Below are positions 18 to 26,137 of a stretch of 26,137 bases of DNA, piece after piece (position 1 is the stretch's first letter; every line of letters begins with the position of its first letter). The translations under genes were made by a program, and so were the position numbers. The stretch lies in the IMG/VR virus record IMGVR_UViG_3300017963_000696, positions 1 through 26,137 of that record; one strand, 5' to 3'. Source of the stretch: a virus. The notes beneath the pieces are model-generated. The model was not told where the DNA came from. It saw nothing but the letters and a program-made list of their open reading frames with translations, and did no database searches.

Positions 18-203
18 TCACTGCTCGGTTTTCTCCGGGGGGGCGATCCCGAGCTTCGCCGCCGCCGCTCGAAGAGCCGTGTCGGTAACACGGTGAACCG
101 CCCCGCCGTCGAGCCAGCGTTCGACGGTTCGCGGGTCGGCGCCGCTCTCGGCCGCGAGCCGTAACGTCTCGGCCCGTCGGTCCGTCTCGTTCCCTTCTGC
201 CAT
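18..203 (-). CDS. Small helix-turn-helix DNA-binding protein
   Basis: This 61-residue protein is essentially one helix-turn-helix. Residues about 16-52 (LAAESGADPRTVERWLDGG, then an Ala-rich helix ending AAAKLGI) follow the pattern of Cro/LacI-like DNA-binding heads: a first helix with an Ala-x-x-x-Gly turn, a recognition helix of the type D-x-R-T-V-x-R-W-L-x-G, and a following helix. It has no effector domain, so by inference it is a small phage repressor or excisionase-like regulator. The ATG is preceded by GGAG about 12 nt upstream. A TAGACT box at 240-245 (minus strand) could be its -10 element. It diverges from the plus-strand gene at 435, so the two may share a control region. The exact family is not recognised. 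Confidence 0.62.
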   Translation of the reverse strand: MAEGNETDRRAETLRLAAESGADPRTVERWLDGGAVHRVTDTALRAAAAKLGIAPPEKTEQ

Positions 204-671: not shown

Positions 672-687
672 CGCGCACCGCGCGCTA
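669..687. terminator. Bidirectional hairpin containing both convergent stop codons
   Basis: TAGCGCGC (669-676) and GCGCGCTA (680-687) form a perfect 8-bp stem with the 3-nt loop ACC. The left arm starts with the TAG stop of the plus-strand gene (669-671). The right arm ends with CTA, the reverse complement of the TAG stop of the minus-strand gene (685-687). One structure can therefore act on transcripts from both sides. No T-tract follows in either direction, so factor-independent termination is uncertain. Confidence 0.5.
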
Positions 688-1134
688 CTCGCACGCCGAG
701 AACGCTCGTTCGAGTTCGGCCGGGTCGCACTCGACCCCGCCGTCGGCCGCGGGTCGGCCGATCATGATCGAGACGTGCTCGGGACAGAAGCGCGCAACGT
801 CGCTCGACTCGACGTTCTCGCAAGTGGCGACACACTTGTCGACGTCTTCGCCGCCCGAGCAACCGAGCCGCGAGAGCGTCTGACACGCCCGCTCGCACGG
901 TTTCCCGAGCGGGGCGGGGGGTTGTCCCCCGTCGGGCTCGGGCGCGTCTCGGGCCGCGTCAGCGGCCGGGGCGGGGGGCGCGTCGGCGCCCGCGTCTTCG
1001 ACGGCCCCGCCGTCGGGGTCGGGGGTCGGGGGTCGGGGCTCGGTCTGACACTCGGCCGCGAGCAAGCTCACGCCGAAGATGGACACGAGACCGATCAGAG
1101 ATCGACGGCCCAAAGGTCGCTCGTTCTGTACCAT
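685..1134 (-). CDS. Cysteine-rich exported protein of the lysis cassette
   Basis: This 149-residue protein has a positively charged N-terminus with an RR pair and a hydrophobic segment (SLIGLVSIFGVSLLAA, 12-27) followed by Cys29. The residue before the Cys is Glu, so it is not a classical lipobox; Sec or Tat export with ordinary cleavage is the alternative. Residues about 31-78 are a Pro/Asp/Ala/Gly-rich linker. The C-terminal domain has eight cysteines (80, 84, 92, 101, 105, 117, 136, 148), enough for four disulfides. The low-complexity linker plus disulfide domain is typical of Myxococcota secreted proteins. The start lies inside the peptidase gene (40-nt overlap) and has GGAG about 9 nt upstream. 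An in-frame ATG at 1179 would add 15 residues but lacks a signal-like start. It could be an outer-membrane lysis factor or a protein made by lysogens; function unknown. Confidence 0.65.
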   Translation of the reverse strand: MVQNERPLGRRSLIGLVSIFGVSLLAAECQTEPRPPTPDPDGGAVEDAGADAPPAPAADAARDAPEPDGGQPPAPLGKPCERACQTLSRLGCSGGEDVDKCVATCENVESSDVARFCPEHVSIMIGRPAADGGVECDPAELERAFSACE

Positions 1135-1880
1135 TGCAGATAGCTCCACGAGATTTTGAAGAAGCCGCGATCGCCCCACCCGGTTCCGTGTGAGTTCGCG
1201 CCGGTTGCGTGCTCGTCGCCTTCGTAGCCGTCGAGCACCATTGCGTGCCCGCCTATGATCGTTTCATTCGTCGGCGCTTCGAGAACGCCGCTTCCGTCGT
1301 ATCGGCGAAAGCTCTCGCCGAGTTGCGTTCCGAAGACGACCGGCTTTCCCGCCGCAAGAGCGCGCTTGATCTCGTCGACTCTTGCGTCGCCCGTTGCCGC
1401 GATCCGGTAGTAACTCGCTTTGCGCTTGTCGTTCGCCGCGATCATGACGTTCGGCGGGGGCTTGCGCTTGTAGGTTGCGCGGGGCGTTCCGTCTTCGTCG
1501 TCGGGCTCGTTCCGATCGTGTGTCACATACGGCCAAACGCTCTCGGGCGGGCGCCCGAGTCGGTTCACGCATTTGATCGCGAGACGGATATACGTTCCCG
1601 AGTCGACCTTCGTTGCGCCGTGCTGATTCCGCGCGTGCCAGTATGCGAAGAGCCGCGACAAGAACTCGACGTCGTTCTCGCCGTTGCGCCGTTGAACAAC
1701 TCGAACCGCTTGGGCGATCGCGTTCGCGACACATGACCCGAGCGCGCCCTGATTCAAGATCGTGACGTGCTCGCGCAAGCTCACGCGAACGGGCGGGGTC
1801 GCAAGATGGAGCGAAGAGAGCGGGAAGTCGCGAACGTCCGGCTCGTCTTCGAGATACCCGAAGCCGAGTTCGTCAGTCAC
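1095..1880 (-). CDS. Papain-like (C1A) cysteine peptidase, candidate lysis enzyme
   Basis: The 261-residue protein has the complete papain-family signature: the oxyanion-hole Gln44 and catalytic Cys50 in NQGALGSCVANA, His212 in GGHAMVLDGY, and Asn229 in GANSHGTGWGDRGFFKISW. There is no signal peptide and only about 40 residues precede the Gln, so there is no long inhibitory propeptide. The GTG start overlaps the TGA of the upstream lipoprotein-like gene (GTGA), implying translational coupling. It sits directly after the holin and spanin candidate, where an endolysin is expected, and no other endolysin-like gene is in the window. By inference it cleaves peptidoglycan cross-links or another envelope protein after holin opening. 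A role in virion maturation or host-protein cleavage is the alternative. The family assignment is firm; the substrate is unknown. Confidence 0.85.
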   Translation of the reverse strand: MTDELGFGYLEDEPDVRDFPLSSLHLATPPVRVSLREHVTILNQGALGSCVANAIAQAVRVVQRRNGENDVEFLSRLFAYWHARNQHGATKVDSGTYIRLAIKCVNRLGRPPESVWPYVTHDRNEPDDEDGTPRATYKRKPPPNVMIAANDKRKASYYRIAATGDARVDEIKRALAAGKPVVFGTQLGESFRRYDGSGVLEAPTNETIIGGHAMVLDGYEGDEHATGANSHGTGWGDRGFFKISWSYLQWYRTSDLWAVDL

Positions 1881-2317
1881 GGTTCGACCTTGAACGAGAG
1901 AGCTTCGGGTTCGGGGATCTTGACTTCGGTTCCGTCGCCCGTCTTGAGCATGCTTCCACTCATGAGACCTTCACGCTTCAAGAACTCGGCAAGCTCGACG
2001 TATGCGCCTTTGAACTCTTCGAACGCCGCGTCGTATTGTTTCTGATCGAGATCGCTCGCGCCGCGAAGCGAATGATTCGCCGCGTTCAACGCGTTGATCG
2101 CGTCGGCGTAGAGTTCGACATACCGCGCGCGAACCTCCGGGGGCGTGTCTGGGTGCGTGCGGAAGTATTCGTTCGCCGCGTTGTCGATAATCTTCAGAAC
2201 CGCGAGCGCGTCGGTCAAGACGGACACGATCTGAGGCAAGACGGGAAGCACGGCCGCGCATGCCGGGGCGAGCGCGATCGCGAGCGCGAGAGTCAGAGCG
2301 ACGAGAAGACGATTCAC
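1877..2317 (-). CDS. Lipoprotein-like helical protein, spanin candidate
   Basis: This 146-residue protein begins with a strongly hydrophobic signal-like segment (MNRLLVALTLALAIALAPAC) ending at its only cysteine, Cys20. The lipobox is imperfect (A-P-A-C), so lipidation is plausible but not certain. The rest is predicted helical and charged (for example QKQYDAAFEEFKGAYVELAEFLKREG), with an acidic tail ending FKVEP. The start is GTG at 2317, chosen because GGAGG lies about 7 nt upstream and GTGA overlaps the holin stop; the reading frame stays open far upstream, but that part is Arg-rich shadow sequence. A small exported, probably lipid-anchored helical protein right after a holin fits an outer-membrane spanin or related lysis accessory. 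No sequence-level family match is claimed. Confidence 0.65.
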   Translation of the reverse strand: MNRLLVALTLALAIALAPACAAVLPVLPQIVSVLTDALAVLKIIDNAANEYFRTHPDTPPEVRARYVELYADAINALNAANHSLRGASDLDQKQYDAAFEEFKGAYVELAEFLKREGLMSGSMLKTGDGTEVKIPEPEALSFKVEP

Positions 2318-2730
2318 TTCGAGCCTCCATTCTTCTTGTAGCGATCGACGGCCGACTCGATCGCGTCTTCGACGAGCGCGCGAACCTTCTTCGGTTCGAT
2401 CACGCGCTCCATGTCGGCGAGCCACTTCGAGCCGAGATAGTCGAGAACGTCGCTTCGTGCGGCCTCGAGTAGCGCGCGGCCTTCGTCGGCTGTGATCTGT
2501 CCATCTTCCGCCGCGGCGCGAGCGCGCTTGACTTGGATCGCCATGCCACGCGCGACGACGATCTCGGCGACGTTGACGAGCCGAAGCGTTGCGTCGCGAA
2601 TGTAGTCTTCGCCGTCTTTGGCGCGCTTCGCTCGGATCCATTTCGAAAGCTCGACCGCGCCCCATGACAAGAGCGTCATGAGAACCGACGCGATCAACGT
2701 GATCGCCTGATCCATGAGAGCCTGATCCAT
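2314..2730 (-). CDS. Holin, LLH-like family, with two potential starts
   Basis: This 138-residue protein has a single N-terminal membrane segment (about 8-28, QAITLIASVLMTLLSWGAVEL) followed by a long charged amphipathic helix region, the layout of the phage LLH-type holins. It would form the inner-membrane lesion that starts lysis. It lies directly downstream of the tail-fibre gene and directly upstream of the spanin and peptidase candidates. The first ATG (2728-2730) has a strong Shine-Dalgarno (AAGGG, 5 nt spacing). A second in-frame ATG at 2713-2715 repeats the first 11 nt and has AGG 5 nt upstream, so two products differing by five residues (MDQAL) are possible. The membrane topology and position support the holin call; no biochemical motif exists for this family. 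Confidence 0.7.
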   Translation of the reverse strand: MDQALMDQAITLIASVLMTLLSWGAVELSKWIRAKRAKDGEDYIRDATLRLVNVAEIVVARGMAIQVKRARAAAEDGQITADEGRALLEAARSDVLDYLGSKWLADMERVIEPKKVRALVEDAIESAVDRYKKNGGSK

Positions 2731-2757: not shown

Positions 2758-4722
2758 CTACGGGGTCAAGTCGACCTTGATCGACTTGACTAGGTTCGTG
2801 TGCGAGCCGGAAGCTTTGAGGTAGAAGTTCGAAACGCCGTCCATTTCGACGATCGTTGCCGCGGCGAACGTGAGAGACAACGACGTCGTGATACACCCGA
2901 ACATTTTGGAATTGAGCGACGATTGATTGTCGACCGTGAGCAAGTTCGCGCTTAGGTAGCAGTCGCGGAAGTAGAAACGATCGAGACTGCTGCAAGATTT
3001 GGACAAGAGCGCGTCGACCATTTGTAGCTCTACCAAGTCAGCGTCAGTGCTACCGCCAACCCCGTCCAAGTAATGATGCATTGCCCCCGAGACTCCCGCT
3101 CCGTCGCCGACGAAACGAACACGGAACTTCGCGGTATCGCCAGTCAATGAAGAAAGGTTTACCGCGTCGCCCGAAGTGTCGTCGATTGTGCAGTTTTGAC
3201 ACTGTAGGTATGTGTCAGAGGCACCGATCGAACCGCTCACGTCCATTCCAGCCGTAAGCGACAACTCCACGAGCCGAAGCGTTTCGCCGCCGCTTACGTT
3301 CCAAGTGACGGCGGTTCCGATCGTAGTGTTGAGAATGTTCCCGTAAAGCGAACACGCCGCGCCGCGGATCGTCACGTCGACGCCGGAAGGAATCGTGAAG
3401 CCGGCATAGTCGGAAGGGCCGACAATGATCTCGACTTCGGCGAGCGATTCGGTCGAGATATACGACATGGCTTGCGCGAACGTCGTAAACGGATTGAGAC
3501 GCGATCCGTTTTCGATCCCGTTGCCCGCGCGTCCGTCAACATAGATCGTCTGCTTCAACGGGGTTACGTCGTCGAAGACGGTCGAAGTCCACAACTCTAG
3601 CTCGTCGAGTTGTTGACGAACGGTTGCGGCCGTCAGGTTTCCGGCTGCCCCGTTTCCCGTGCCGATCCGATATGCGCCGTCGTCGGCCGTGACCGTTCGG
3701 ATCAATTGATCGAGAAACGACGCAACCGACGAACCGAAGAAGTTCCCGCGCGCTTGCGCGCCAACGAACGCGGCGCCGTCGGGCGTTGTATTGTCGACGA
3801 GATTTTCCCAAAGCAGATCCAACTGATCGAGAAGCTCTTGAATCGCCGCGCCCGCCGTGCCTTGCGTGATCGAAACGTGCGCGTAGGTTGCCGTCATGGC
3901 TTCGATCCCGACGAGACCGATCCCACCTTCCGAAGCGGGCGCGGTCTTCGACGCGAGATCGGAAACGATCTCGTCGATCGCGGCTTCGACGTCGGTTGCC
4001 GAGAGCGGAGAACCGTTCGCCCAATTGCCGCTTCCCGCATAAGTGATCGACGCCGCCGCGTGTCCCGTTCCCGAAGCGACGTGACTTTCGATCTCGTCGA
4101 GCACGGCTTGATCCATGGCTTCGGCGGTTCCCTCGCGAAGCGTTCCCGCCGCCGACCCCGTGATCACGAACGCGTCTTCGCGTCGGCTCGTCAGATCGAT
4201 ATCGCCGGTTAGGATCTGAGTCTGGCCGTATGTGCGTGTGATATCGGCCAGCAAGATCCGACCGCTTTCGAGACCGGGCGGGGTCGGCGAGCCCGCCGAC
4301 TCGGCGCCTTGCTTGACGAAGAAGGTCAAGTCTTCGTCGCGTTGAAAGAAGACCGTTTGCGAGTTGCCGTCGATCCGTGGGTCGCTCAAGTTCCGAACGA
4401 ACTCGGCGAAGACGGACACGATCTTAGAGTTGCCGGGCGTGGCAACGTCGGTCGAGACCGAACTCGAATCGACCGAGACGTCGACGTTCTCGACCGCATT
4501 CGAGAAGAGACGTTGCCCGGCCTGATCGTAACCGACCCCGGTTCCGACGTCGACCGAGACGTTCGGAGTCGGCGACGCTTGCGAGACACCGAGCCCGGAC
4601 ATGATCCCGATCAAGCCGTTGTCGCTGATCATTGCACGGTCGGCGACTTCCGCGTTATCGAACCCGAGATCGAGTTCGGCTTCTGTTACCTTCTGGCGGA
4701 AGTAGTAGTCCAATCGGTCCAT
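2758..4722 (-). CDS. Tail fibre with C-terminal beta-helix region
   Basis: The protein is 654 residues long. The N-terminal third (MDRLDYYFRQKVTEAELDLGFDNAEVADRAM onward, with QTVFFQRDEDLTFFVKQG) looks like a baseplate-attachment region. The middle carries repeated Ala/Thr-rich helix-strand units (residues about 210-370). From about 385 on, the motif YVDGRAGNGIENGSRLNPF followed by F-x-x-A introduces a right-handed parallel beta-helix-like domain rich in short Ser/Thr/Asn strands, a fold common in receptor-binding phage fibres. No catalytic depolymerase residues are obvious. The ATG is preceded by AAAGGG. It follows the gpI-like baseplate gene and precedes the holin, the usual place for a host-recognition fibre. 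Confidence 0.82.
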   Translation of the reverse strand: MDRLDYYFRQKVTEAELDLGFDNAEVADRAMISDNGLIGIMSGLGVSQASPTPNVSVDVGTGVGYDQAGQRLFSNAVENVDVSVDSSSVSTDVATPGNSKIVSVFAEFVRNLSDPRIDGNSQTVFFQRDEDLTFFVKQGAESAGSPTPPGLESGRILLADITRTYGQTQILTGDIDLTSRREDAFVITGSAAGTLREGTAEAMDQAVLDEIESHVASGTGHAAASITYAGSGNWANGSPLSATDVEAAIDEIVSDLASKTAPASEGGIGLVGIEAMTATYAHVSITQGTAGAAIQELLDQLDLLWENLVDNTTPDGAAFVGAQARGNFFGSSVASFLDQLIRTVTADDGAYRIGTGNGAAGNLTAATVRQQLDELELWTSTVFDDVTPLKQTIYVDGRAGNGIENGSRLNPFTTFAQAMSYISTESLAEVEIIVGPSDYAGFTIPSGVDVTIRGAACSLYGNILNTTIGTAVTWNVSGGETLRLVELSLTAGMDVSGSIGASDTYLQCQNCTIDDTSGDAVNLSSLTGDTAKFRVRFVGDGAGVSGAMHHYLDGVGGSTDADLVELQMVDALLSKSCSSLDRFYFRDCYLSANLLTVDNQSSLNSKMFGCITTSLSLTFAAATIVEMDGVSNFYLKASGSHTNLVKSIKVDLTP

Positions 4723-6039: not shown

Positions 6040-6689
6040 GGAGTCACCGTTAGCGAACCGCTCGCCGTTGCCGTGCCCGCACTCGACCCCCAAATCAGAT
6101 CGTTAAGCGATCCGTATGCGGTCGAACCGCAAACGATCGTCCCGACCATTGAATCGCTAACGAGAACGAGATCGTCGACGTACCATGCTGGAAGTTCGAG
6201 ATCACGTTCGTCGGTCCCGGCCCCGTCGATAAACTGAAGACGCAAGCGGATCGTGTGATCGCCCGCTGCGAAGTGCGAAACGTTCGCCGCTATGTCGACG
6301 AGATCACGCGTTCGCCCCGGAAGGATCACGCGCGAAGTGATCAGCGTCGAGTCGATCAAGAGCTTCGCATACCAGAAGGTATTAGCCGGCATGCTCGACG
6401 GTCCACGGATCCGAGACTTCATTCGAAGGATCAACGCGTCGTCGAAGTCGGCTTCTTGGTTGATCTCGAAGTAGTCACCATTTCGGAAGCGGCCAACCGC
6501 GCCGGGCGTATCGGTCCCGAGACAAACCGCGAAGTCGCCTTCGGGCGCGTCGAAGTTGTCGGGTTGCAAGCGAAGCCCGTCGCCGCGAGCAACCGCGGCC
6601 ATGAATGGACCGAGCGTCGAGAACGCCGACGGCGCCCCGCCGCCGCTCGACGATCCCCAAGTCGATCCCCATGTGACCCCGTAACCCAT
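6036..6689 (-). CDS. Tail-associated structural protein, unknown
   Basis: This 217-residue protein starts with a Gly/Trp/Ser-rich segment (MGYGVTWGSTWGSSSGGG), a style seen at the start of small tail proteins neighbouring gpI genes. The rest is beta-rich and resembles a jelly-roll or lectin-like sandwich (FDDALILRMKSRIRGPSSM, HTIRLRLQFIDGAG, WYVDDLVLVSDS). No enzyme motif is seen. Its start overlaps the glycosyltransferase stop (TAATG) and its stop overlaps the gpI-like start, so it is cotranslated with both. It may be a decoration or adhesin protein and a possible acceptor for the neighbouring glycosyltransferase, but that is inference. Confidence 0.6.
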   Translation of the reverse strand: MGYGVTWGSTWGSSSGGGAPSAFSTLGPFMAAVARGDGLRLQPDNFDAPEGDFAVCLGTDTPGAVGRFRNGDYFEINQEADFDDALILRMKSRIRGPSSMPANTFWYAKLLIDSTLITSRVILPGRTRDLVDIAANVSHFAAGDHTIRLRLQFIDGAGTDERDLELPAWYVDDLVLVSDSMVGTIVCGSTAYGSLNDLIWGSSAGTATASGSLTVTP

Positions 6690-7363
6690 TAGCTCGAAGC
6701 CTCCGAGAGTTCAGGCCACGCCGCGCGCAAGCATGCCGCTTGCCGTGCTTCGCGCTCCGGGTGAAAGCGAAGCGAAGCGTCAGAGAGAAACGCTTCGGGG
6801 TTCGAGTGTGGCCGTCGGTGTCGATAGTCCCCCGGAACGACGAGCACGCGTCGACCTTGCGCACGAAAGATCGCGCCGAGAAAAATGTCGTCGGTGTCGC
6901 GGCAACGTGGATCACGGCCGAACGCGAGAACGTCGCTCGGTCGAAGCCATGCCGCGCGATAGGCCCACCCGAGAAGCCCGCCGAGATAGTCGGCGTGTCC
7001 ATCTTCGACCGTGGCGCCGTCGAGTGTGTGACCCTGGAAACCGCAAACGCAATTCTCGCGATCGACCGCTCGTGCGAGCGCGCTCGCGTGATCGTGCCAG
7101 TAACAATAATCGTCGTCGAACGTGACGATCGTATCCGTCGGCGCGACGAAATGCGACGCAAGGTGTTTCTTCCCCGGCCCTATGTCTTCGACCGCGTAGA
7201 CTTCGGCTCGCGTTCCGTCGGCTTGCTTGCTTGCCGCGTCTCGAACTTGGGGGGCGACCAGAAGAAGCACGCGTTCGACGTCGACTTGATCGCATACACT
7301 TTCGAGCGCCGGGCGAACATGCTCGACGCGCGGTTCCCAAGTCGTGAGGCAAGCGACGATCAA
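6689..7363 (-). CDS. GT-A fold glycosyltransferase within the tail operon
   Basis: The protein is 224 residues long if it starts at TTG (7363). It begins with a beta strand typical of GT-A enzymes (IVACLTTWEPR), followed by a D-x-G-P-x-K-K/H motif (DIGPGKKHL, 60-68). The metal-binding acidic triad lies at residues 83-85 in IVTFDDDYCYW, and a second acidic cluster, DTDDIFLG (156-163), could bind acceptor or metal. This pattern matches a group of family-2-like phage and bacterial glycosyltransferases. The TTG was chosen because AAGGGG lies 9 nt upstream and the previous gene stops 1 nt before it; an in-frame ATG at 7492 would overlap that gene by 128 nt. It has no membrane segment, so it is cytoplasmic. 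It probably modifies a virion protein, though a host sugar target is possible. Confidence 0.78.
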   Translation of the reverse strand: MIVACLTTWEPRVEHVRPALESVCDQVDVERVLLLVAPQVRDAASKQADGTRAEVYAVEDIGPGKKHLASHFVAPTDTIVTFDDDYCYWHDHASALARAVDRENCVCGFQGHTLDGATVEDGHADYLGGLLGWAYRAAWLRPSDVLAFGRDPRCRDTDDIFLGAIFRAQGRRVLVVPGDYRHRRPHSNPEAFLSDASLRFHPEREARQAACLRAAWPELSEASS

Positions 7364-7364
7364 A

Positions 7365-7763
7365 CTATTGTCCCCTTCTGATCGCCGTTGCTTCGGCGAC
7401 GAAATGCCAATCGTCGCCGCCGCCCGGTCCGCCCCAATGGATTTGGAGCCGAAGCGCGTCGGAAGAGTAGACCACTTGAAACTGATTTCCATGAACCGCG
7501 TCTTGCAAGAGATCCGCGTTTGCGACGTCGATATCGACCTTGCTCGTGCTTGGCGAATCGTCGCGCATGGCGAACGCGTGGATCGTCATGGATCCGTTTC
7601 CGTTGCTTCCGCTCGTGCCTGTCGTGAACGTCGAGACGGCAACGCGAAAAACCGCGTCGACGGCTTCTTCTTGACCGACCGGGATCACAATCAGATCGAC
7701 GAACGTTGTTTCGCCTTCCGACTTGACCGCTTCGCCGAAGTATTTTTCGATCGTGCTCGCCAT
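7365..7763 (-). CDS. Small structural protein, unknown
   Basis: This 132-residue protein is beta-strand-rich with a Gly/Ser/Thr loop (TTGTSGSNGNGSMTIHAF) and a C-terminal signature RLQIHWGGPGGGDDWHFVAEATAIRRG. I do not recognise a named family. Its position between a large fibre gene and the glycosyltransferase suggests a small virion or fibre-associated protein. AGGG lies 8 nt before the ATG, and the gap to the upstream gene is only 3 nt, so it is translated from the same message. Confidence 0.6.
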   Translation of the reverse strand: MASTIEKYFGEAVKSEGETTFVDLIVIPVGQEEAVDAVFRVAVSTFTTGTSGSNGNGSMTIHAFAMRDDSPSTSKVDIDVANADLLQDAVHGNQFQVVYSSDALRLQIHWGGPGGGDDWHFVAEATAIRRGQ

Positions 7764-13070: not shown

Positions 13071-13508
13071 TCACCCGAGAATCACTTCGACTTCGACGCC
13101 GGGGATCAAGACCTTGTTCCCGGGTACGTTCTGATCAATGAAGTCGGCGACGACTTTCAGCGTGATCGCGCGTTGTTGCCGATCGAAGGTCGGCGTAATG
13201 TTCGCCACGCGGATCCGTGGCTCTTGCTTGTCGATCGCTTCTTGCGCGTAGACGCGTGCAAGCTCGCGAACGAGATTGCCCTTCCGGTGTTTCAGCGTGT
13301 GAAGCTTCGAGCCGAGTTCTTGACGCCAAACGATCTCGCCGTCGGTGTGCTCGCCTTGCGCTCTCGTGCCAAGGATCTGCCCGAGCACGCTTCGAACTAG
13401 CTCGCGCCCGCCCGTGCTCGCGAAATCGTTTTTCTTGTCGCGCTGAAAAGGTCGAACGATCCCGAAACCGAGAAAGCGGTCGAGCGGTGTCACGTCATCG
13501 GAAGCCAT
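13071..13508 (-). CDS. W: gp25/GpW-like baseplate wedge protein
   Basis: This 145-residue protein matches the small lysozyme-like fold of the T4 gp25/P2 gpW family, a structural and non-enzymatic part of the baseplate wedge that nucleates sheath assembly. Visible family features are the opening FLGFGIVRPFQRDKKNDFA, a central R-x-E-L-G-S-K-L-H (WRQELGSKLHTLKHRKGN) and the C-terminal strand pair RIRVANITPTFD...ITLKVVADFI. It starts close to a putative -10 box (13521-13526), so it may head its own transcription unit. Confidence 0.9.
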   Translation of the reverse strand: MASDDVTPLDRFLGFGIVRPFQRDKKNDFASTGGRELVRSVLGQILGTRAQGEHTDGEIVWRQELGSKLHTLKHRKGNLVRELARVYAQEAIDKQEPRIRVANITPTFDRQQRAITLKVVADFIDQNVPGNKVLIPGVEVEVILG

Positions 13509-24039: not shown

Positions 24040-24426
24040 TTACCCTTCGACGTTTGACTTCGCTTCGGAACCCTTGCGCCCGCCGCGGGCGCGCTTCTTC
24101 GTGTCCGTCTTCGACGGCGCCGGGGGCGCCGGGTTGTTTGCTTCACGCTGGGAACGATCGACGATCGCCCCGCGAATGATCTGGATCTGGCCGGCCGCTT
24201 CCGCGTTCTTGACTTCGGTACACTCGCCGACCGAATCGGGAAGATTCGAGACCGTCGCGCGTGCGAGGATCGTCAGCGAATCAGCGAGCCGCTTCTTCAC
24301 GAACTCGCCGACGCTTCCGCCGTTGATCAGTTGACGAACGACGGGAATCTTTCGGACCTTCACATGGTCGGATCGATCGAGATTCAGAACGAGCATGCGA
24401 CGAGTCTTGTTCTTGATTGCGATCAT
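24040..24426 (-). CDS. Small conserved-type phage protein, unknown
   Basis: This 128-residue protein opens MIAIKNKTRRMLVLNLDRSD, a short beta motif seen at the start of small phage proteins encoded just before sheath genes. The middle is helical (EFVKKRLADSLTILARATVSN), and the C-terminus is a Pro/Lys/Arg-rich tail (NPAPPAPSKTDTKKRARGGRKG) that looks disordered. It overlaps the upstream IPT-domain gene (ATGA) and precedes the sheath by 7 nt. A head-tail or sheath-associated role is plausible, but no named family is recognised. Confidence 0.6.
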   Translation of the reverse strand: MIAIKNKTRRMLVLNLDRSDHVKVRKIPVVRQLINGGSVGEFVKKRLADSLTILARATVSNLPDSVGECTEVKNAEAAGQIQIIRGAIVDRSQREANNPAPPAPSKTDTKKRARGGRKGSEAKSNVEG

Positions 24427-25454
24427 GGCCGTTTCTCTCCGGGGCTCAGAATGGATCTGACGACGAGTGACGGGTCGGGGGACAGTTGTTCGAGTTCGAG
24501 GGTCACGGGATCGTCGTCGGCGTAGGCTTCGCGTCGAATCACGCTATTGTCGATCCCAAGGTCCACGCCAGCAAGAGTTTCAATATCGAAGCCCCGAATC
24601 ACGGCTTTCCCCTCGAAAGCCCAAAGGTTCGAGTTGTTCGCAACGCCCGTCGTGTTGAAGTCTTCCGTCAGCGCGATCTCATACTCGACGAAGCCGAGCG
24701 ACGGATCGTTCTGATCGCGCAACATGCGAAGCTCGAAATTCTTCGCGAAGAAATACTCGGCCGCGTGCTGGAGGTTGAGAAGCTCCATCTTGCGATCACT
24801 GACGCCGACGATCGTGAAGGTGAGATCAACGGTTCGCGGAACTTGGAACGAGTTGAACTCGACACCTTCGAGACCTTCGACGTCGTGTTCGGGCTCCGCG
24901 TTGATCGAATAGAACCGATTCTCTTCGACGTCCGGGCCGACGAGCGCAAGCCCGGGAAGTTCGGCGACGTGAACGACTTCGATCAAGACGTTTCCGGCTT
25001 CGTCGAAATCCGTGTGTTGACTGATCTGGACGTTTTCGAGGATCTGTCGTTGGAGTTCGAGAACGAACGTTCTCACAACGCGTTGAAGGTCGCTCTCGTT
25101 CTCGGGCTCGGTTGTGATGATCGGCCGAACGAACTCGAACGCGTTCGCTTGCGTGACGCTCTCGCTCGCGATCGGTGAACCGTTGTCGTCTAGGTTCTCG
25201 ACCTTGATCGCTACCACGCCGGGATCGTGGATCGGTGTCTCGGCATAGAGCCGCGACCCGCTCACAATGATCAACGATCGCGCCGGCTCGTCGCCGAAGT
25301 AAACCGCGACCGTCAGCGGCAACGATTGTCGATCGGTTTCTCCCGCCGCTTGGATCGTCGGAAGACGGAAGTTCGATCCCGTGATCTCGACGAGCGTTCG
25401 CCCGCCCGTGTGACCCTTGCTCGGGCCGATTGTGCTGATCGTGGGAACGGCCAT
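24423..25454 (-). CDS. IPT/TIG-domain tail protein
   Basis: This 343-residue protein starts with an IPT/TIG Ig-like domain (about 3-110: PTISTIGPSKGHTGGRTLVEITGSNF, then GVVAIKVENLDDNG). The C-terminal two-thirds (TTEPENESDLQRVVRTFVLELQRQILENV, then LPGLALVGPDVEENRFYSIN and a beta-rich end with VDLTFTIVGVSDRKMELLNL) resembles small neck or tail-terminator-type proteins located just before sheath genes. A terminator role is inferred from position only. It is the first gene of the minus-strand operon visible here and has a good candidate promoter upstream. Confidence 0.65.
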   Translation of the reverse strand: MAVPTISTIGPSKGHTGGRTLVEITGSNFRLPTIQAAGETDRQSLPLTVAVYFGDEPARSLIIVSGSRLYAETPIHDPGVVAIKVENLDDNGSPIASESVTQANAFEFVRPIITTEPENESDLQRVVRTFVLELQRQILENVQISQHTDFDEAGNVLIEVVHVAELPGLALVGPDVEENRFYSINAEPEHDVEGLEGVEFNSFQVPRTVDLTFTIVGVSDRKMELLNLQHAAEYFFAKNFELRMLRDQNDPSLGFVEYEIALTEDFNTTGVANNSNLWAFEGKAVIRGFDIETLAGVDLGIDNSVIRREAYADDDPVTLELEQLSPDPSLVVRSILSPGEKRP

Positions 25455-25536: not shown

Positions 25537-26137
25537 ATGGCAAGCGTAGGAGCCGCTGAATTTTTCGCTTCGCTGCCCAAAGAACCAAGCCGGAAACGCG
25601 AAGACATGATCGTCGGCGCCGTGCAAAAGCGAATGCACTTGCCGACCGATCTTCGCGAGCTTCGATCGGAACGCGGGTCGCGAAGTGCCACTTTCCGAGT
25701 CATGCGCGACGCGCTCGCGATCGGAGTTTCGGGCGACTCGGTTCGCCCAAACGTGACGGCAGAAGGCGCACAACGAATCGCCGACGCGCTCGGTCTCATG
25801 CTTCCGACCGCAAAGCTCGTCGAGCTTGCATGGGAACAAGGGATTCGGATCTCGCCGACAACTCTCACGCCCGATCACAAAATGGCATGGACCGAACGCA
25901 TGATCGATCACAGTCGCAAGGTCGATCAAAAGCTTTACGGTACGGCCAACGATCGATCGAAAGTCGTCGCCGCGAATGTGGGGAAGCATTGGGTCTTGTC
26001 GAACGCGCTACTCGAGGGCACGAAGCCGCGCATAGTCGAAGGGCATTTCGCTTGTGTCAACTTCGGTTGGTATCGATCGAAGACGAAACCATATCGACCG
26101 ATCCAACCGCCGTCGACCGGGCACAACTCATATCACA
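25537..26137 (+). CDS. Conserved unknown protein, 3' end outside the window
   Basis: The reading frame is open from ATG at 25537 to the window edge (200 codons, no stop). The N-terminus (SVGAAEFFASLPKEPSRKREDMIVGAVQKRMHLPTDLREL) and the segments FRVMRDALAIGVSGDSVRPNVTAEGAQRIADALGLMLPTAKLVELAW and KPRIVEGHFACVNFGWY...YRPIQPPSTGHNSYH match, from memory, a widespread uncharacterised family in Gram-negative bacteria and phages. In that family 'MTPxxAQxIADxxGxxLPTxKMVDxIW' precedes 'IxGWHxxxGxPIQPLxxxHxxxYxDYSHG', sometimes next to peptidoglycan-binding domains. A cell-wall-related enzyme is one possibility; the function is not established. Its orientation is opposite to the tail genes and it has a leaderless-type start. 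Confidence 0.72.
   Translation, partial: MASVGAAEFFASLPKEPSRKREDMIVGAVQKRMHLPTDLRELRSERGSRSATFRVMRDALAIGVSGDSVRPNVTAEGAQRIADALGLMLPTAKLVELAWEQGIRISPTTLTPDHKMAWTERMIDHSRKVDQKLYGTANDRSKVVAANVGKHWVLSNALLEGTKPRIVEGHFACVNFGWYRSKTKPYRPIQPPSTGHNSYH

Follow-up and report, generated by a model that had tools for sequence, protein, structure and literature searches.

Xylellain-type C1A cysteine peptidase genes acquired by myo- and siphophages have already been reported (PMC10380794), and CDS0095 of Alicyclobacillus phage MMB025 is a predicted endolysin with a C1 domain (PMC13141910). The papain-like peptidase described here (C1) resembles xylellain (PDB 3ois), one of the short bacterial C1A peptidases, in its Q/C/H/N set and N-terminal lead-in; unlike xylellain, it belongs to what would be a late cassette of a phage, with coupling to holin-like and lipoprotein genes. 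With CDS0095 it shares a C1 domain, N-terminal there, in a predicted lysis enzyme. However, CDS0095 (L002:7878-10139 among the loci collected) is a 753-aa protein that also contains Ig-like, Rv2525c GH-like and PG-binding domains, whereas ours is C1 alone. The third point of comparison is the two-component spanins (Rz/Rz1). These share with the cassette its exported lipoproteins and, in the relative G048, a spanin-like gene for a TM/coiled-coil protein immediately before the first lipoprotein gene, but here a protease lies between two lipoproteins and there is no confident spanin family match, relatives giving weak spanin matches alongside their lipoprotein-like genes. C1A peptidases in tailed phages, and one within a predicted endolysin, are thus already published, and the unusual feature is the conserved cassette; the literature searched, which covered few subscription papers, showed no account of a lysis cassette with a C1A peptidase between two lipoproteins.

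We analysed the 26,137-base viral record IMGVR_UViG_3300017963_000696 in full (hereafter the window), which is probably a fragment. Its minus strand carries, besides the cassette at the left end, a contractile-tail module that includes a tail tube (T4 gp19), a tape measure, a CIS-type tube protein, hub, gpV, gp25, baseplate J and a Tail_P2_I protein, together with a weakly matching sheath. The Tail_P2_I protein had no match among annotated phages. The nearest sizeable relative, G001 (72% identity in the tube, 65% in J and 64% in the sheath), has the same cassette order. From the fibre gene, this order is holin-like protein, lipoprotein A, C1 and Cys-rich lipoprotein B, and the features that bear on it are as follows:

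2758..4722, minus strand: tail-fibre-like gene upstream of the cassette, 39-50% identity in relatives
2314..2730, minus strand: holin-like membrane protein, 138 aa, one N-terminal TM-like segment
1877..2317, minus strand: lipoprotein-like gene A, 146 aa, hydrophobic TM-like N-terminus, Cys20
1095..1880, minus strand: C1A (xylellain-type) papain-like cysteine peptidase C1, GTG start, 261 aa; Q44, C50, H212, N229
685..1134, minus strand: exported Cys-rich lipoprotein-like gene B, 149 aa, CxxxC...C...C pattern
18..203, minus strand: small protein after the cassette, 61 aa, 56% identity over 57 aa to the G001 gene at 43811
25537..26137, plus strand: start of an endolysin-type gene, N-terminal 200 aa, the contig ending before the rest

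Two further genes were observed in this region. One, at 6689-7492 on the minus strand within the tail module, is possibly glycosyltransferase-like (Pfam E 0.06) and is unmatched in the relatives compared. The other, a 78-aa gene at 435-671 on the plus strand, lies beside the cassette on the opposite strand and is 69% identical to a G001 gene (at 13462) that sits among head genes.

Judged by its sequence, the product of 1095-1880 is a true member of the C1A family with an intact active site, and protease activity is predicted. It matched Pfam PF00112 (Peptidase_C1) with 35.7 bits (cut-off 20.7), PHROG 16701 ('peptidase') at 7e-19 and, using phmmer, xylellain at 1.5e-34 over residues 5-259. The sequence-only reading of this DNA had assigned the catalytic set to Q44, C50, H212 and N229, exactly where we place it: all four residues are invariant in the ten full-length homologues aligned (the window protein and nine further phage homologues), unchanged at identities down to 20%. 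The predicted model was of low confidence (mean pLDDT 53), with xylellain as its top PDB fold match and cathepsins also among the best. Across the full length of C1, Peptidase_C1 was the only Pfam domain above cut-off, and the same scan found no known peptidoglycan-hydrolase or PG-binding domain. The protein has no TM-like segment and no signal-peptide-like stretch at its N-terminus. Searching the viral contigs with the window C1 protein alone recovered no relative, while the C1 of the relative G015 recovered itself only; the C1 alignment is too divergent to support a pattern search.

The genes of the cassette are coupled by overlaps. A 4-bp GTGA overlap joins the holin-like gene to lipoprotein A (2314-2317), a second joins lipoprotein A to C1 (1877-1880), and lipoprotein B, with its ATG at 1134, starts inside the C1 gene (40-nt overlap). 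This bears out the earlier description of a translationally coupled holin–lipoprotein–peptidase–exported protein cassette, with the proviso that the holin match in the window is weak (PHROG 6918, E 0.019). PHROG holin matches were obtained at 6e-4 for the G001 homologue, which is 49-50% identical to the window protein, at 1e-3 for that of L011 and at 1e-7 within the G015 cassette. Lipoprotein A is 37-41% identical to the gene at the equivalent place in G015, and the held-out relative L196 matched the lipoprotein A HMM at 6e-31. Counterparts of lipoprotein B lie downstream of C1 in G001, G015, G047, G048 and G049. In its anatomy (a holin-like protein, a signal-less soluble protease and two exported lipoproteins), the cassette fits a late lysis cassette.

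Relatives were collected using the baseplate J protein as query (70 viral loci) and using the conserved N-terminus of the tail-fibre-like protein, which marks the slot, as bait (66 viral loci, some on contigs already among those collected). The slot was scanned in the fibre-bait viral loci and in bacterial-genome loci with profiles built in this analysis. The order fibre, TM/holin-like protein, lipoprotein, C1 and Cys-rich lipoprotein was found in six phages: the window, G001, G015, G047, G048 and G049. In G001, the cassette comprises the holin-like gene, a short lipoprotein-like gene, C1, a Cys-rich exported protein and a 59-aa small gene. A sixth relative, G021, also has C1, but its contig stops within the gene. 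Because the profiles derive partly from surveyed phages, the held-out phages G048 and G049 provide the clean test: G048 matched C1 at 3e-66, lipoprotein A at 6e-31 and lipoprotein B at 8e-18, while G049 matched C1 at 1e-33 and lipoprotein B at 4e-8, the latter borne out by direct inspection of the sequence.

When the loci extending more than 1.5 kb beyond the fibre gene were counted, a short Amidase_2 protein occupied the slot in 23, C1 occupied it in six (five distinct phages apart from the window), and 32 had neither by the profiles used. Slot amidase and C1 occurred together in none of the surveyed loci, and lipoprotein B was found only alongside C1. In 6 of the 23 loci (L011/L173, L013/L144, L099, L121, L149 and L152), the slot amidase was accompanied by a holin-like gene from the same family as that of the window, and the prophage-like loci in Myxococcota MAGs, with sister phages, likewise have Amidase_2 in the slot. 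Sister holin–endolysin cassettes (L011, L013, L099 and L121) therefore resemble that of the window in post-fibre slot and holin-like family, but carry Amidase_2 instead of lipoprotein–C1–lipoprotein. As a statement of position, the earlier claim that a papain-like enzyme sits where the endolysin would be agrees with these sisters, in which the slot beside the holin-like gene holds Amidase_2; that C1 stands in for a missing endolysin is nevertheless not supported.

The right end of the window bears on this point. Using tblastn, we found that 25537-26137 on the plus strand corresponds to the first 200 residues of a 532-aa G001 protein (48% identity, E 1e-51) with Amidase_2 and PG_binding_1 at its C-terminal end (the latter weak, below cut-off). 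The G001 gene runs on the opposite strand; its neighbour is the homologue of window gene 24423-25454, and genes for membrane proteins follow. On the basis of this homologue, the PG-binding and Amidase_2 domains of the window gene would lie beyond the contig end. The N-terminus of about 200 aa common to the window, G001 and G015 amidases matched no Pfam or PHROG family. G015 has an amidase protein of this kind at a distance of about 2 kb from C1, and in G049 an Amidase_2 lies about 35 kb from C1. Thus, at least three relatives (G001, G015 and G049), and very probably the window phage, have both C1 and an amidase. The sequence-only reading had found no lysin recognisable in the window, which is literally true for domains but passes over a gene that starts at 25537 and runs off the end of the contig. 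Its suggestion of a papain fold replacing the endolysin is not supported, since the standard endolysin that it proposed looking for elsewhere in the genome is present in these relatives and very probably in the window phage.

G047 and G048, two cassette carriers whose records may be incomplete, gave no Amidase_2 match; in the G047 gene scan, 25 of 61 Pfam families were among the matches listed, and a lysin could lie outside these. Profiles for SLT, CHAP and M15_3 gave no matches in the relatives searched. We rejected the lack of a recognised lysin as an argument, because many relatives without C1 show none either. Separately, short exported proteins with a common E-S motif, lysozyme-like by eye, adjoin the C1 cassette in four relatives (L081:6185-7072, minus strand; L082:8027-8578, plus; L196:11604-12248, plus; L156:12105-12650, plus). 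Those of G015, G047, G048 and G049 may be muralytic enzymes, but they had no Pfam and no significant PDB profile match, and the one that was folded gave a poor model.

Since the window holds the start of a probable cell-wall amidase gene, C1 probably serves as an additional lysis tool that acts on the envelope and not as a replacement endolysin. An envelope protease aiding lysis, the other option raised by the sequence-only reading, is our best reading, which we hold to be as apt to prove wrong as right. More specifically, there is perhaps an even chance that C1 supplies the central enzyme of a late four-gene cassette and, once released via the holin, attacks envelope proteins, with peptidoglycan left to the amidase. 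Under this scheme, C1, lacking a signal peptide, would accumulate late in the cytoplasm, the holin-like protein would open the inner membrane so that C1 reaches the periplasm, and C1 would then cut envelope proteins. Lipoproteins A and B may help or localise it, and the separately encoded amidase endolysin would meanwhile cut peptidoglycan; the TM/coiled-coil protein of G048 is placed as an i-spanin might be. Counting against the scheme are the weak holin matches in the window, the C1A genes of other phages, which in FLC9 and Shaeky are not near recognised lysis genes and in MW202426 lie in a structural region, and the cassette carriers without a recognised amidase (G047 and G048), their records being possibly incomplete.

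The cassette directly follows the tail-fibre gene, in the tail operon, and a virion role is therefore possible, with C1 acting as a virion or tail protease in entry or in fibre or baseplate maturation. The arrangement in MW202426, where the C1 peptidase is in the structural region and an R21-like endolysin is annotated further on, is consistent with such a role, but the coupling of C1 is to holin-like and lipoprotein genes, not to tail genes, and we regard it as unlikely. The pattern of identities also argues against it: the window C1 is nearer that of G015 (40%) than that of G001 (30%), and lipoprotein A is nearer G015 (37%) with no detectable match in G001, although the tail proteins are closest to G001. 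Because both genes depart in this way from the tail proteins, the comparison suggests that lipoprotein A and C1 form one unit, moving or evolving together and swapped among related phages. Such swapping, and a protease flanked by two exported lipoprotein-like genes, would also suit a moron that alters the host surface, for example in superinfection exclusion; this is doubtful, given that the set replaces the amidase in the lysis slot, travels with holin-like genes and includes a C1 without a signal peptide. It is improbable that C1 itself cuts peptidoglycan, whether as the only endolysin or as a second one: its place in the Amidase_2 slot of the sisters, the C1 fusion in MMB025 and the failure to find Amidase_2 in G047 and G048 point to such a role, but against them stand the amidase gene begun in the window and present in three relatives, a protein consisting of C1 without a PG-binding domain, and closest solved relatives that are protein-cutting proteases.

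As to hosts, J relatives in bacterial genomes were mostly in MAGs named Myxococcales, Polyangiaceae, Archangiaceae and Deltaproteobacteria, with some matches in Anaerolineales, Rubrivivax and Trueperaceae MAGs that may be binning errors. By these matches, the window phage is related to prophages of myxobacterial genomes. Returning to C1 as an envelope protease, we tentatively propose that a phage lineage of Gram-negative hosts, probably Myxococcota, might employ a dedicated papain-type protease and its two partner lipoproteins to break envelope protein as an added part of lysis, replacing spanins or working beside them. The locus also illustrates how an endolysin can be misread as absent when a contig stops inside its gene. 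If C1 takes part in lysis, the cassette would be a compact, testable one, adding a step that cuts envelope proteins to the scheme of holin, endolysin and spanin.
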